Source of the DNA: an uncultured Pseudodesulfovibrio sp.
GTDB taxonomy: Bacteria; Desulfobacterota; Desulfovibrionia; Desulfovibrionales; Desulfovibrionaceae
Direction of reading: 5' to 3'
DNA length: 64,000 nucleotides
NCBI RefSeq assembly: GCF_963677845.1
Contig: NZ_OY782498.1
Span: 3,231,518 to 3,295,517 of the forward strand
Shown here: one piece after another, positions 21,499 to 26,163 of the stretch
Position numbering within the stretch: the stretch's first letter is position 1
Layout of the letters: every line of letters begins with the position of its first letter
Translations under genes and position numbers: made by a program
The notes under the pieces: model-generated
The model's input: the letters and a program-made list of their open reading frames with translations, nothing else
What the model was told of the DNA's origin: nothing
Databases searched by the model: none

Positions 21499-21996
21499 TT
21501 AGTCGACTTTGGCGTATGCCTTGGGGGCTGCGCCACAAATAGGACATTTTTCAGTGGGTTCACCGTCCTGCGTATGACCACAGACGGAGCAGATGTAAAA
21601 GTCAGCATCAGCGAAAGTATCAGTATCGGCTTCAAGAGCCTGTGTGTACAGCTCGGCGTGAATTTTCTCAGCCTCGTTGGCAAATCCGAAATAGCGCAGG
21701 ATAGCATTTTCGCCTTCGGCTTTGGCGTCTTCCATCATATCGGGATACATGGATTTAAACTCAAAAGTTTCGCCTTCAATAGCAGATTTGAGATTCTCCT
21801 CAGTAGAGCCAATACCTTTCATAAGACGAAGGTGCGCATGAGCATGGATGGTCTCGGCGGCTGCAGCAGCACGAAACAGCTTGGCAACACCGGGCTTGCC
21901 ATCTTTTTCAGCCTTTTCGGCAAATGCCAGATACTTACGGTTGGCCTGAGATTCACCTGCAAACGCTTCCTTCAAGTTTTCCAAAGTCTTACTCAT
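21499..21996 (-). CDS. rbr: Rubrerythrin
   Basis: A 165-residue rubrerythrin, a cytoplasmic non-haem iron peroxidase that reduces H2O2 in anaerobes. The N-terminal four-helix part carries Glu ligands of the di-iron site (FAGESQANRKY, AAAAETIHAHAHL, GFANEAEKIHAELY). The C-terminal rubredoxin-like knuckle has CSVCGHTQDGEP and CPICGAAP. The ATG at 21996 has AGGAG upstream. A Fur/PerR-like box lies about 75 bp before the start, which fits peroxide control. Confidence 0.96.
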   Translation of the reverse strand: MSKTLENLKEAFAGESQANRKYLAFAEKAEKDGKPGVAKLFRAAAAAETIHAHAHLRLMKGIGSTEENLKSAIEGETFEFKSMYPDMMEDAKAEGENAILRYFGFANEAEKIHAELYTQALEADTDTFADADFYICSVCGHTQDGEPTEKCPICGAAPKAYAKVD

Positions 21997-22067
21997 TGTA
22001 TTCTCCTGTCTCAATTCGGTTGCAGCAACTTTATAGAGGTGCTGTGAATGTTCATTTGTTGAAAAAT

Positions 22068-22082
22068 TAGTAATGATTCTCA
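22068..22082 (-). promoter_or_regulatory. Fur/PerR-type box upstream of rubrerythrin
   Basis: TAGTAATGATTCTCA matches the 7-1-7 Fur-family palindrome TGATAATnATTATCA at 11 of 14 defined positions. Position and target gene suggest PerR; Fur cannot be excluded. Confidence 0.45.
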
Positions 22083-22179
22083 AAAAGAAAATCAAGTACT
22101 ATTTATTAATGCATACAACACAGTGTTCCATTTTGCTAATTCACAAAAAATTACAACCAGGCATAACCTCAACTCCCCC

Positions 22180-22206
22180 CTTCCTAACGACGCAGATGCG
22201 CAGCTT
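22180..22206 (+). repeat. R element fragment
   Basis: Only the 3' half is recognisable: CCTTCCTAACGACGCAGATG then CGCAGC. It lies 33 bp before the complete copy at 22239. Confidence 0.6.
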
Positions 22207-22238
22207 CATATGCCACAACATCTCCGATAACCAACGGC

Positions 22239-22366
22239 GTGAGGCTTGCGAGAGGGATGTAGCTGCTAGGCGAAAGGGTTTGAGTTTCCCACAGCCGTAG
22301 CCGAGCTACGGTGAGGACAGACTCAATCCTTCCAACGACGCAGATGCGCCGCTATCGCAAGCCGAG
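22239..22366 (+). repeat. R element, copy 3
   Basis: The copy with the most perfect ends: GGCTTGCGA at the left pairs with TCGCAAGCC at the right. The apical hairpin is CCGTAGC, CGA, GCTACGG. It lies between the rubrerythrin promoter and the terminator of the small membrane-protein gene. Confidence 0.9.
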
Positions 22367-22379
22367 TAACGAAGCAAAC

Positions 22380-22435
22380 AAAAAAAGAACCGCCTTTGTC
22401 TGGGAGGAAAGGATGAATATCCCAGACAAAGGCGG
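22380..22435 (-). terminator. Terminator of the 54-residue protein gene
   Basis: Perfect 15-bp arms CCGCCTTTGTCTGGG and CCCAGACAAAGGCGG with a 16-nt loop; on the minus strand a run of seven T residues follows. Its presence supports the short gene upstream. Confidence 0.9.
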
Positions 22436-22476
22436 CTCAAACCCGCTTATTAATGGAAGCGTCCGCTTCCGGGAAA

Positions 22477-22641
22477 TTAGGCGCCCCTGGTAAACAGTGT
22501 CAGGGCAAATGCAGCCATGGCAGAAACTCCAGACAAGATCAAAGGACGGCGGTTGCTCTTGCGAACAATGCGAACCGGCGTATTACGTGTGCCGTTCTGC
22601 AAGGCCATCATGGCGAGTCGAGTATCGTTTTCCATGCTCAT
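22477..22641 (-). CDS. Small membrane protein (54 aa), divergent from a LysR gene
   Basis: A 54-residue protein with AGAAGGAGC at good distance before the ATG at 22641 and a strong terminator 42 bp after the stop. Residues 1-32 are polar and basic (many Arg, ending in RKSNRRP); residues about 33-50 are hydrophobic (LILSGVSAMAAFALTLF), so a C-terminal membrane anchor with cytoplasmic N-terminus is likely. I do not recognise a family. It is divergent from the LysR gene at 22819 and is its most likely target. A matching arrangement occurs at 24736. Confidence 0.75.
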   Translation of the reverse strand: MSMENDTRLAMMALQNGTRNTPVRIVRKSNRRPLILSGVSAMAAFALTLFTRGA

Positions 22642-22764
22642 AATTTTGCTCCTTCTCGGGTGCCGTCACCCAAGCGCTTTTCCATATCTGCACATCTACG
22701 GAACAACGTGTAATCAATCCAATTGTTTTGTTCGATTAACTCCTTCGGTTTTTCTGATGACAAA

Positions 22765-22780
22765 ACCGATCTTAATCGGT
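22765..22780. promoter_or_regulatory. Candidate LysR operator
   Basis: ACCGAT, CTTA, ATCGGT is a perfect 6-bp-arm palindrome between the divergent small gene and the LysR gene. It sits 39 bp before the LysR start, a usual place for an autoregulatory site. Confidence 0.4.
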
Positions 22781-22818
22781 ATCGATAATTGACTCCATTG
22801 AAGAAGGTGATCAACGAC

Positions 22819-23700
22819 ATGGAACTCTATCAGCTCAAGACATTTGTAGTGGTGGCAGAAGAAGAGCACCTGACCCGTGCGTCAGTGCGATTGCATACGA
22901 GCCAACCTACGGTCAGTGCGCATATCAAGGCGTTGGAAGAAGAGCTTGAAACACGACTGTTTATCCGTACACCCAAGGGTATGCGACTGACGGAGGCAGG
23001 CGAGCGACTGAAAAACAAGGCAAAAGAAGTGCTTCAAACGGCGAGAGAATTAACGCTTGAAGCGCGTAACATGGGCGATGAACTGGTAGGCGACCTGTCC
23101 ATTGGGCTAAACACGGATGCTGAATATCTGCGAATAGTGCCATTACTCACTTCTCTGGGAAACGAACACCCAAAGATCACGATGCAGATTCAACAGCGGG
23201 CAAGCACTTCAGTACAGGACGCCATTCTGGACGGCATATTGGACTGCGGTTTCATCTTTGGCGAACCTCGTCACCCGGACATTCATTCCGTCAAACTGAA
23301 AGATACACAATTTTTCGTCGCCGTACCGGACATTTGGAAAGACCGTATTCCCGGAGGGCTTGAGGCTCTGGCCGATTTGCCGTGGATCATGGATCCCAGT
23401 GACAACCCGTTGCAAAAACTGACGGACCCTTTATTTAAAGCCAGAAACATTAAGCTTCCCATCCAGTTGGAAGTGGACGGCGACGAGGTTATTCGTGTGC
23501 TGGTAGCTGCGGGTAAAGGCGTTTCATTTCTGCGAAAAAATGAAGTTGAGGCTGCCAATCGCATAGGCCAGACCGTTCATGTCATGGCCTTTGACGAATT
23601 AATTATTGATGTTCGTTTTGTCTGGCTAAAACGACGAGATCAAGACCCTGTCATGCAGGCCGTCATTGATCATGTAAAAAAAGCCTGGAGCATCCAATAG
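22819..23700 (+). CDS. LysR family transcriptional regulator 1
   Basis: A 293-residue LysR protein. The N-terminal HTH reads MELYQLKTFVVVAEEEHLTR, then LHTSQPTVSAHIKALEEEL; the rest is a periplasmic-binding-like effector domain. ATG 22819 is preceded by GAAGGTGAT. It is divergent from the 54-residue membrane protein and converges with a second LysR gene of equal length; the two stop codons are about 5 bp apart with no terminator between. The two proteins share the same N-terminus and look like paralogues. The ligand is unknown. Confidence 0.93.
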   Translation: MELYQLKTFVVVAEEEHLTRASVRLHTSQPTVSAHIKALEEELETRLFIRTPKGMRLTEAGERLKNKAKEVLQTARELTLEARNMGDELVGDLSIGLNTDAEYLRIVPLLTSLGNEHPKITMQIQQRASTSVQDAILDGILDCGFIFGEPRHPDIHSVKLKDTQFFVAVPDIWKDRIPGGLEALADLPWIMDPSDNPLQKLTDPLFKARNIKLPIQLEVDGDEVIRVLVAAGKGVSFLRKNEVEAANRIGQTVHVMAFDELIIDVRFVWLKRRDQDPVMQAVIDHVKKAWSIQ

Positions 23701-23705
23701 GGCAA

Positions 23706-24587
23706 CTACACACCCCATTCCTTGCGGACTATATCGATAAGCATAGACATGGACGGATCGTCTGCCTGATTCTTACGATATACAAAATTCATCTCTAGTG
23801 AATGATGACCCAACAGCGGGCATTCCGCCCCCTGATTCAGCTTTAGCAGCCTGTCAGCCTCATCGTCACGCATCACACCGAGCGCCTTACCTTCGACAAC
23901 AAGTGGCCGCATGACTTCTTCTGAATTCACACTGATTATCTGAGCCGGAACAATCCCATATTCATTAAACAGTTTTACCTGCAATTCCTGAAGAGGGCTG
24001 TTACTGGTAGCCACCACCCAAGTATACGCGGAAAGCTCTTCGGGACCGGCCTTGGCCAGATCCTTCTTCATGTGGGCAGCTCCCATTACGCAATAGAAAG
24101 GATCAGCCAGCTTAATCGTGTCGAGATCGCCATAAGGGTTACCGGAAAAAATAAATCCGGCGTCCATGTTTCTGGCCCGAATTTCACTGAGGATAACTCC
24201 GGAAGGGGATTGGGCGAGCTTCAAATTGAGACGCGGAAATCGCTCTGCAATCTGATTAAGTAGACCACTGACCTTGAGATACTCGGGGTCGGCACACAAC
24301 CCGAGAGCCATCTGGCCGGTTACGGCACCACCCAAAGTCACAGCCCGGGCTTCGAGCGTATTGGCTGCGGCAAGGACTTCGATGGCATCATGCACCAGTT
24401 CAGACCCTGCATGGGTCAACTCCACACCACGCGCCACGCGATCGAATAATCGAACACCAAGTTCCTCTTCAAGGGCCTTGATATGTGCACTGACCGCTGG
24501 CTGTGAAGCATGGACACGCTTGCCCGCACGAGTAAAGTTTCCTTCTTCGGCCACAGCCACGAAAGTTCTGAGTTGATAGAGTTCCAT
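23706..24587 (-). CDS. LysR family transcriptional regulator 2
   Basis: A 293-residue LysR protein, paralogous to the one at 22819: MELYQLRTFVAVAEEGNFTR and HASQPAVSAHIKALEEELGV are almost the same, while the effector domain has diverged. It is divergent from a 52-residue membrane-protein gene at 24736 across 148 bp. The tail-to-tail layout with regulator 1 could cause antisense interference at the 3' ends. Confidence 0.93.
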   Translation of the reverse strand: MELYQLRTFVAVAEEGNFTRAGKRVHASQPAVSAHIKALEEELGVRLFDRVARGVELTHAGSELVHDAIEVLAAANTLEARAVTLGGAVTGQMALGLCADPEYLKVSGLLNQIAERFPRLNLKLAQSPSGVILSEIRARNMDAGFIFSGNPYGDLDTIKLADPFYCVMGAAHMKKDLAKAGPEELSAYTWVVATSNSPLQELQVKLFNEYGIVPAQIISVNSEEVMRPLVVEGKALGVMRDDEADRLLKLNQGAECPLLGHHSLEMNFVYRKNQADDPSMSMLIDIVRKEWGV

Positions 24588-24653
24588 TATGCCTTGATTC
24601 CTCCAATGGCCTCATAAGCCATCAGCTTTACTTATAGGTGATCTCATGCATTG

Positions 24654-24664
24654 TTATTGGACCA
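24654..24664. promoter_or_regulatory. Candidate LysR operator 2
   Basis: ATTGG, A, CCAAT palindrome followed by CGG, in the gap between LysR 2 and the 52-residue gene. The extended ATCGG word also occurs in the palindrome at 22765. Weak alone. Confidence 0.3.
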
Positions 24665-24735
24665 ATCGGCTGTCCTTTCCATATGAGTGATTTCAAGGAC
24701 TTTATCAAATTTGAGGGCAGACCGAGGAGGATTCC

Positions 24736-24894
24736 ATGTTGCGTGAAGAAAAGACCAACGGTTTTGTGTACCTGTTCACACCCGAAGATTGCGATACTTT
24801 CTATCGCATGCCCAGAATGCTTAAAATTACCAAAGCATTTCTCTGGGTCGGTGTTGCATTTCTCATGAGCGTGGGTGTGAGTCAACTGGTCTAG
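24736..24894 (+). CDS. Small membrane protein (52 aa), divergent from LysR 2
   Basis: A 52-residue protein with GAGGAGG at ideal distance before ATG 24736. Residues 1-30 are polar (LREEKTNGFVYLFTPEDCD); residues about 33-51 are hydrophobic (KAFLWVGVAFLMSVGVSQL), predicting a single C-terminal membrane anchor. No family is recognised. Its stop codon abuts the stop of the converging GGDEF gene. It mirrors the 54-residue gene at 22477 in size, topology and LysR pairing, although the two sequences are not clearly alike. Confidence 0.72.
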   Translation: MLREEKTNGFVYLFTPEDCDTFYRMPRMLKITKAFLWVGVAFLMSVGVSQLV

Positions 24895-26163
24895 TCATCC
24901 AAATATAATTTTGTCGCGGCCGGTATCCTTGGCTTTATATAAAGCCTGATCCGCCCGCTTCACTAATTCATCGCCTGTCTCTCCAGGTGTGTGCATAACA
25001 ACGCCAAAGCTGGCCGTAATCCTTCTTGGAACACCAGTAAAGGCAAAATGCTTGACTGCCAAGCGCAGTCTCTCCGCCACCTTGATAGCGCGCTTCTCCC
25101 CAGTGCCAGGAGACAGGACGATGAATTCTTCTCCGCCCCAGCGGGCCAAAACATCTCCATCCCGAACCTGATCCCGAACCAACTGAACCATTTCACGCAG
25201 GACTGTGTCGCCAACGTCATGACCATACGTGTCATTGACGGATTTAAAGTGGTCAATATCGAACATGATCAGCCCAAAAGCCGTATCAGTCCCTCTCAAA
25301 CGGCTCAATTTTTCCATCAGACTGCGTCGATTAAATGCTTTGGTCAAAGGGTCGGTTGACGCTTCTCCCTGAAAATAAACCCGCTCATCTTCCAAATCAC
25401 TTATATCCTGAAACGAAAAAAGCCGCATATCCGTGCCCGGAAACTGGTTGAAAGTCACACTAAAAACCCTTGGCCGTGAACCAGGATTTCGTGGGTTCTC
25501 TATGTGCAGCACATGATCGCGATCAACCGGGTCATTGACCATTGATTCAATCCATTTGTGGGGATGGCCTTCATACATCTCATTATTTTGTTGTAGAATA
25601 AAATCTTCCAACCCCATGTCCAGAGCACACGCACTTTCTGCTGCATCCAGACCAAGAAAAATACGTAAAGGCTGGTTCATGTATGTCACATCAACTCCAT
25701 CCACCAACAAAGCTGGGCCAGGGAAAAAATCAAGCAATCGATACAGGGAGTAATCTGCCTGAGCCATGCGCCGAGCCATGGAAATATCTCGTGCGCACTG
25801 CATGACCGCTTCACGGAGTTGCGAGCCATCCACAGGAAGCCTGAAAAACTTGTCAACGCCCAACTCTACGGCCTGTACCAGCCCGTATGGAGCATATGAA
25901 CCAAAGGTGACGATTACCTTAAGATCTGGCGTGGATTCACGGACTTCTTGCAGAAGATGTAAACCGTCCAGCTGATCAATATTCAAATCCATGATCAGAA
26001 TTTCCGGCTTGAGATCATGAAACAACCGCAATCCTTCACGGCCATTCGAGGCCCCATGGATATAGGCGTTTCCACCTTCCAGCAAATCCACCATACGTTT
26101 GCGCTCAAGGTTATCGCCTTGAACCACAAGAATATTCAAAAGAGACTTCCCGTTCAACTGCAT
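24895..26163 (-). CDS. REC-PAS-GGDEF diguanylate cyclase
   Basis: A 422-residue response regulator. The N-terminal receiver has LIMDLNIDQLDGL with the phospho-acceptor Asp near residue 58. A PAS-like region (about 140-250) follows, then a GGDEF domain with DIDHFKSVNDTYGHDVGD, active-site GGEEF, and the RDGD inhibitory I-site 5 residues earlier. It should make cyclic di-GMP and be feedback inhibited. GGAGCAAAC precedes ATG 26163. It follows fabI by 11 bp, so they probably share a transcript. No cognate kinase is adjacent. Confidence 0.92.
   Translation of the reverse strand: MQLNGKSLLNILVVQGDNLERKRMVDLLEGGNAYIHGASNGREGLRLFHDLKPEILIMDLNIDQLDGLHLLQEVRESTPDLKVIVTFGSYAPYGLVQAVELGVDKFFRLPVDGSQLREAVMQCARDISMARRMAQADYSLYRLLDFFPGPALLVDGVDVTYMNQPLRIFLGLDAAESACALDMGLEDFILQQNNEMYEGHPHKWIESMVNDPVDRDHVLHIENPRNPGSRPRVFSVTFNQFPGTDMRLFSFQDISDLEDERVYFQGEASTDPLTKAFNRRSLMEKLSRLRGTDTAFGLIMFDIDHFKSVNDTYGHDVGDTVLREMVQLVRDQVRDGDVLARWGGEEFIVLSPGTGEKRAIKVAERLRLAVKHFAFTGVPRRITASFGVVMHTPGETGDELVKRADQALYKAKDTGRDKIIFG

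Follow-up and report, generated by a model that had tools for sequence, protein, structure and literature searches.

What does a bacterium do with two tiny genes that each face the gene of a LysR-type regulator across a shared intergenic gap? The question is raised by a 64,000-nt stretch of DNA from an uncultured Pseudodesulfovibrio sp. (the window, to whose full length all positions refer), in which two LysR genes, LysR-A and LysR-B, are divergent from two short genes, smA and smB. A preliminary description had read this arrangement as an inverted duplication in which each LysR controls its own membrane microprotein. Because many sulfate-reducing bacteria have pairs related to these, the tiny genes look real and governed by the adjoining LysR, and we regard it as very probable that the unit is real and under LysR control.

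Our best explanation of the whole, to which we assign a probability of about 0.5, is that the window would carry two paralogous copies of one LysR-microprotein regulatory unit. In each copy the LysR, sensing a small metabolite, would bind the conserved footprint between the two divergent genes and activate the microprotein promoter, whose -35 element would be TTGGAY. The product would be a microprotein that spans the inner membrane once, anchored by its tail and with the conserved N-terminal segment on the cytoplasmic side. It would bind and tune a partner in that membrane, for which a small-molecule exporter or some other transporter is the likeliest candidate and a sensor kinase a less likely one. 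The action on a transporter is a tentative element of this explanation, and may well prove wrong.

Conservation and form of the small genes

LysR-A has a match at an expectation value (E) up to 1e-30 in 35 of the 36 Pseudodesulfovibrio genomes, and smA was found at E < 1e-4 in 27 of the 60 genomes searched, its own included, all 27 being among those 36. We read the slots facing these LysR genes in 45 loci with the window (46 loci were fetched, and L086 of genome G008 was not used). Of the 35 LysR-A loci in the genus, 31 have an smA-like gene in the facing slot. smB faces 22 of the 23 LysR-B genes, and also 10 of the 13 LysR-C-class genes located other than in tandem behind LysR-B. The preliminary description held that LysR neighbours lacking the small genes would speak against the pairing; such neighbours are few, and are given below.

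Both small genes were picked by a home-made gene caller that uses codon usage and the ribosome site, and the strong ribosome-binding sites noted earlier are present on each (Table 1). A fixed test, requiring a frame of 45-70 amino acids (aa) with a ribosome site and a C-terminal hydrophobic segment within 350 bp opposite the regulator, was passed opposite 29 of 35 LysR-A genes, 20 of 23 LysR-B genes and 10 of 23 LysR-C-class genes (ten of which are in tandem behind LysR-B). Among other LysRs of five genomes, 2 of 30 rows passed, one of them a true smB beside LysE; in this control some genes were counted twice, one start-less row was dropped, and regulator starts were located by a different method from that of the tested set. 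A 56-aa frame that has a ribosome site and a hydrophobic C-terminal segment lies within a LysR-rich cluster, divergent at 112 bp from a LysR that belongs to another subfamily (L269, G024:C1 near 3744993). Nonsynonymous divergence (dN) was below synonymous divergence (dS) in each of the 18 equal-length pairs chosen by us, not all of them independent (for smB, for example, 0.07 vs 0.99). What can be read directly from sequence is the presence of the genes, that they are conserved and under selection, the footprints described below and the recurrent LysR/microprotein pairing.

The short frames are conserved past close strains, across the genus, and smB also occurs in other genera and other Desulfobacterota. 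Its profile matches 57 of 199 family genomes at E up to 0.1, with strong matches in genera g1, g19, g25, g35, g40, g41 and g44, and at E up to 0.01 it matches 14 of 345 phylum genomes, with E below 1e-6 in 7 of them. In g19, g25, g35, g40, g41 and g44, as well as in Desulfopila aestuarii and Desulfosarcina widdelii, it faces a LysR of this same subfamily. The first 20 loci from other genera or paralogues comprised 14 facing a LysR of the same MELYQL type and six that are LysE-linked. Also opposite this subfamily there are smB-like frames (28-36 bits) in Desulfosediminicola flagellatus (L177) and two metagenome-assembled genomes (L169, L184), and diverged copies (20-22 bits) at three g33 loci that the first profile search missed. 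In D. widdelii (L176, 2686-3604), smB is followed after 32 bp by a gene for a 177-aa protein without a Pfam match and then by a cupin gene; in L206 and L223, too, a LysR of this type has a similar small gene opposite it.

In both families the most hydrophobic segment lies within 9 residues of the C-terminus, in all 77 aligned rows, and helices are predicted there; this agrees with the C-terminal segment seen earlier, whose membrane insertion and topology are predictions. The smA pattern consists of an N-terminal MSM[DE]xDTRLxMM, a basic linker and a C-terminal hydrophobic segment AFALTLFTRGx. AlphaFold2 predicts helices at 3-19 and 36-53 (mean predicted local distance difference test score, pLDDT, 67), and the median net charge before the segment is +5, which under the positive-inside rule suggests an N-in topology. 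The smB pattern is YLFxPEDS, then K-xxx-W opening the C-terminal predicted membrane helix, and an SQLx end; E17, K33, W37 and L51 are invariant in 48 rows. The window's smB carries all the marks by which we define its family, namely a PED-type motif, K-xxx-W at the membrane segment and a C-terminal anchor. A helix is predicted at 27-51 (mean pLDDT 73), and the protein is neutral before its segment, so that its topology is less clear than that of smA.

Neither protein matches a family in Pfam, NCBIfam or PHROGs, in agreement with the earlier view of both as genes without annotation, and the lack of a PHROGs match leaves no phage family to assign. The one Pfam line for smA, a weak one (PF14972, E 0.012, 15.8 bits vs a cut-off of 27), was set aside. 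An assignment of either protein to DUF1127 was rejected, there being no PF06568 match and a negative profile comparison, and a likeness of DxRL in smA to the DUF1127 core, seen by eye only, was dropped. We found no paper on these microproteins in the open-licence literature, a scope that leaves subscription journals mostly outside.

Table 1. Features of the two LysR-microprotein units, in window coordinates
Feature	Position	Strand	Description
Terminator-like hairpin past smA	22387-22438	-	Inverted repeat, 19-nt arms, 95% complementary, 14-nt loop
smA	22477-22641	-	54 aa; AAGGAG 7 nt before ATG
smA-gap conserved core	22716-22736		AATCCAATTGTTTTGTTCGAT; proposed LysR-A site; alignment of 27/29 gaps
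LysR-A	22819-23700	+	293 aa
LysR-B	23706-24587	-	293 aa
smB-gap conserved core	24643-24662		GTCCAATAACAATGCATGAG (minus-strand reading); proposed LysR-B site; alignment of smB/LysR-B,C gaps
smB	24736-24894	+	52 aa; AGGAGG 5 nt before ATG

At the outer edges of the locus, smB directly abuts a convergent gene at 24895-26163, which we take from its motif to be of GGDEF type. Between a rubrerythrin gene and smA, AACGACGCAGATGCGC is present twice by eye, at 22186-22201 and 22334-22349.

Divergent gaps and the history of the two units

The gap is 177 bp between smA and LysR-A and 148 bp between smB and LysR-B. The palindromes reported in both do exist (CCGAT-CTTA-ATCGG near 22767 and ATTGGACCAAT at 24656-24666), but what relatives keep is a longer footprint around TTGGAY and not the palindromes as such. 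Across 27 of the 29 smA gaps, the two longest having been left out of the alignment, the footprint has the core AATCCAATTGTTTTGTTtGAT, after which come TTC, TGAT and ATC blocks at intervals; the aligned smB gaps share GTCCAATaaCAATGCGTGAg...ATAAGgAAtccTGATTG. Within the window's cores lie the likely -35 elements of smA (TTGGAT, minus strand, 22717-22722) and of smB (TTGGAC, 24657-24662, with CATATG 17 nt on at 24680-24685). TTGGAY is present in all 29 smA and all 34 smB gaps of the genus. It is present, too, in 30 of 43 gaps that we chose outside the genus, against 2.3 expected from mononucleotide shuffles; distances are approximate for L054, L128 and L289, and the match in L054 is inside the true gap.

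At LysR-activated promoters the regulator's site reaches the -35 element, with the recognition element upstream. Both gaps look like promoters of this kind, at which the LysR would bind, and the direction of control, activation, is suggested by gene anatomy. The earlier proposal, control of each microprotein by the LysR that it faces, fits these observations, because each of the two units has its own conserved promoter-like footprint. In the window's own genome each core was matched once at up to 3 mismatches; no wider regulon sharing these cores appears at that stringency, and looser sites were not searched.

The two LysR genes are convergent and of 293 aa each, with 5 bp from stop to stop, as first reported. 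Both exceed the curated cut-offs for Pfam HTH_1 and LysR_substrate. Their best NCBIfam match, NF040786 (selenium-metabolism LysR), gives 134.9 and 118.2 bits, under its 250-bit cut-off. The N-termini had been called near-identical; they are alike, 33 of the first 43 residues being the same, but fall short of near-identity, and over the full length 112 of 294 aligned positions are identical (38%). Between its two halves the module has a single inverted repeat, which comprises the LysR gene starts (130 nt at 72%), and because of this we read the pair as an old paralogy with no recent inversion.

We rejected the idea that the unit as a whole had been duplicated in inverted orientation. The LysRs are indeed paralogues, but smA and smB have no sequence relation by BLASTP or hhalign and so do not form a single homologous family by any detectable homology. 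Nor is the layout general: at 15 of 35 LysR-A loci the LysRs run tail to tail, and at the others the units are separated or share a strand. In a LysR tree of 90 rows, which leaves out redundant genus loci and L158, LysR-A forms a clade with support of 100/100 that neighbours the LysR-B/C group within a set of smB-linked LysRs. The partnerless group of this tree is overstated, since three of its rows (L169, L177 and L184) carry the smB-like frames mentioned above. The placing of LysR-A makes it likely, rather than certain, that smB is the older partner and that smA is a replacement or a copy diverged past recognition.

Tandem LysR-C genes form one clade of the same tree. LysR-B and LysR-C lie in tandem, with ends overlapping or nearly so, at L043, L047, L055, L066, L068, L070, L075, L079, L082 and L083, and five of these ten loci (L047, L055, L068, L075 and L082) have two intact smB frames opposite the pair. 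Each intact frame there has one copy of the site, and loci without the nearer smB are also without its copy. A LysR of this subfamily is found near genes that we presume to be purD and purE in two genera (L116, L117, L071 and the window), which suggests an old shared position of the LysR.

Occupants of the slot and the role of the microproteins

The slot opposite this LysR subfamily holds other products elsewhere. DUF1127 (PF06568) faces the LysR in five of six gammaproteobacterial tree rows (L171, L175, L178, L181 and L228) and DUF3563 in two betaproteobacterial rows (L179, L180). EamA is opposite the LysR in L186, L187, L190 and L191 (the Pelomonas, Rhizobacter and Variovorax rows being L186, L187 and L191), LysE in L054 and L291, and an amino acid permease in L292. 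In genera g15, g27, g37, g53, g55 and g56 the slot is filled by a protein of 98-131 aa with an N-terminal hydrophobic segment. The Cys-containing slot protein, presumably exported, is opposite the LysR at nine loci (L278, L279, L281-L286 and L289), has an end of the type LCEACxxxC...RERCxRACGL with three Cys invariant in six aligned, and gave no Pfam match in the eight of these loci that were scanned.

smB, in turn, is found with other regulators. At g41 loci it stands beside a LysE-type exporter gene and opposite a MocR-type (GntR-aminotransferase) regulator (L118, L119, L122, L123 and L131), and it faces a MocR-type gene without a LysE match in L231 and L232. A different LysR subfamily is opposite it in L135, L234 and L243, with LysE 25 bp downstream in L135. 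In L067 and L071 one smB lies 10-13 bp before an EamA exporter gene and a second lies 279-378 bp before MarC. Because it is also found opposite MocR-type regulators and a different LysR subfamily, smB looks like an output rather than the partner of one regulator, and it behaves like one that accompanies export functions; we therefore favour a membrane adaptor that would tune a transporter. The transporter partner and an amino-acid-like signal are guesses, made because the LysR of relatives faces LysE, EamA or an amino acid permease and because smB is found beside LysE and EamA. The divergent LysR-LysE pair occurs in some relatives and not in the window, where five transporter queries gave no match to LysE, EamA or MarC at E up to 1e-6, so that the exporter link is a guess drawn from relatives.

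More broadly, this LysR subfamily may keep a divergent TTGGAY promoter and footprint as a socket into which tiny membrane or exported proteins, or small-molecule transporters, are exchangeably plugged; its products would be smA, smB, the Cys-containing family, DUF1127, DUF3563 and small-molecule transporters. The microproteins would then be new LysR-controlled inner-membrane adaptors tied to metabolite efflux, two forms of which lie adjacent in Pseudodesulfovibrio. We judge the odds for and against this extension to be evenly balanced.

Several observations weigh against the explanation that we prefer. LysR-A is without smA at 4 of 35 loci (in G009, G011, G014 and G032), LysR-B without a microprotein at 1 of 23 (L053 in G012), and LysR-C-class genes without one in G009 and G032 (L050, L081); because four genomes keep LysR-A without smA, LysR-A may have other targets. 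In L043 the nearer of the two small frames is disrupted relative to those of relatives, the g21 loci L287 and L288 are without a credible small gene, and Marinobacterium stanieri (L182) has no DUF1127 opposite its LysR. TTGGAY is missing from 13 of the 43 gaps outside the genus, including all four EamA gaps. The forks that nest LysR-A among smB-linked LysRs have modest support (88/76 and 82/82, unstarred), and it is for this reason that the seniority of smB was called likely. The hydrophobic segment of smA is weak (median Kyte-Doolittle value 1.56 over 17 residues, minimum 0.92), and the protein could be peripheral rather than inserted. It is also nearly genus-bound: a profile search of 199 family genomes gave nothing outside the genus better than E 0.04, with a weak smA-like frame in g36 (L277, 13.8 bits). 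A single action shared by smA and smB is an assumption, since the two have no detectable homology. Finally, most fetched loci, the window included, have no linked exporter, so that the transporter partner is unproven.

The main rival to a transporter-tuning adaptor is a DUF1127-like adaptor for sensor kinases or other inner-membrane signalling proteins, the dose of which would be set by the LysR. The DUF1127 genes facing this LysR subfamily in five of the six gammaproteobacterial rows favour it, as does YjiS, a DUF1127 protein reported to lie at the cytoplasmic membrane and to bind sensor kinases (PMC12501420). However, smA and smB are unrelated in sequence to DUF1127, and a common slot is not a common function; we consider this rival unlikely, if worth serious attention.

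A microprotein that anchors its own LysR at the membrane, or acts as its anti-regulator and so closes a feedback loop there, would explain why LysR clade and microprotein type match, LysR-A with smA and LysR-B/C with smB. The occurrence of smB opposite MocR-type regulators and a different LysR subfamily, and the unrelated proteins or transporters that occupy the slot opposite the same LysR subfamily, make this improbable.

Less probable still is a reading in which the RNA matters and not the protein, each short frame being a leader peptide or a by-product of a regulatory transcript. The preliminary description gave smA its own terminator with a 15-bp stem; the hairpin is there, with a T run beside it on the minus strand by inspection of the sequence, but its arms are longer (Table 1). 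Upstream of LysR-A at 6852 in L052 (G011) the footprint and the smA hairpin are kept by eye with no smA frame between them, and in L049 and L080 (G009, G032) TTGGATT is kept upstream of LysR-A together with a similar shared stretch of about 200 nt, possibly a transcribed RNA, and no small frame. Against this stand the dN below dS in all 18 pairs and the four residues invariant in smB, and an Rfam scan of 21900-25500 gave no match, by which a known RNA element at the locus was rejected. Least probable of all is a small membrane toxin under LysR control, which size and a single hydrophobic segment alone would suggest, but which is opposed by the lack of PHROGs, Pfam or NCBIfam matches and by a genus-wide conservation like that of a resident gene; the Rfam scan gave no antitoxin, and no search beyond it was aimed at antitoxins.

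The tail-anchored adaptor under LysR control that we prefer would matter in several ways. Two conserved, unnamed microprotein families come to light, with a third, Cys-containing, in related genera, and each has a predicted dedicated regulator and binding site, so that deletion of a single regulator would be a direct test of function. Should the exporter link be true, the tuning of efflux through tail-anchored microproteins would be widespread in bacteria. The exchange of products within the slot suggests, moreover, that a LysR-target promoter can persist while the product behind it is swapped.

Comparison with described systems

LysG/ArgP-type LysR regulators are paired with a LysE exporter, and two members of the present subfamily do face LysE (L054, L291); in the window, by contrast, a microprotein takes the exporter's place. 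KdpF is a small single-span modulator of a transporter. AcrZ is likewise reported to be a small single-span protein that tunes a transporter (PMC7267776). Such tuning is what we propose for smA and smB, whose units differ in having a dedicated divergent LysR.

The E. coli pair yjiR-yjiS resembles the window's units in layout, with a MocR-type regulator gene divergent from a 54-aa DUF1127 gene over 176 bp, and smB itself is found opposite MocR-type regulators, with or without LysE, at the loci given above. Regulator family and microprotein family are both unlike those of the window.

Closest in logic is VtlR of alphaproteobacteria, a LysR reported to activate genes of small DUF1127 proteins directly, its reported targets also including small RNAs (PMC12595884, PMC7486931). 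The view that no system of this form had been described was thus too strong, since VtlR likewise has very small proteins among its reported direct targets. Those targets are DUF1127 proteins, to which smA and smB are not detectably related, and where direct activation is reported for VtlR, control in the window is predicted from the conservation of site and promoter. Because their microproteins belong to different families, the window's units are a variant that stands beside VtlR and yjiR-yjiS and not members of either system.

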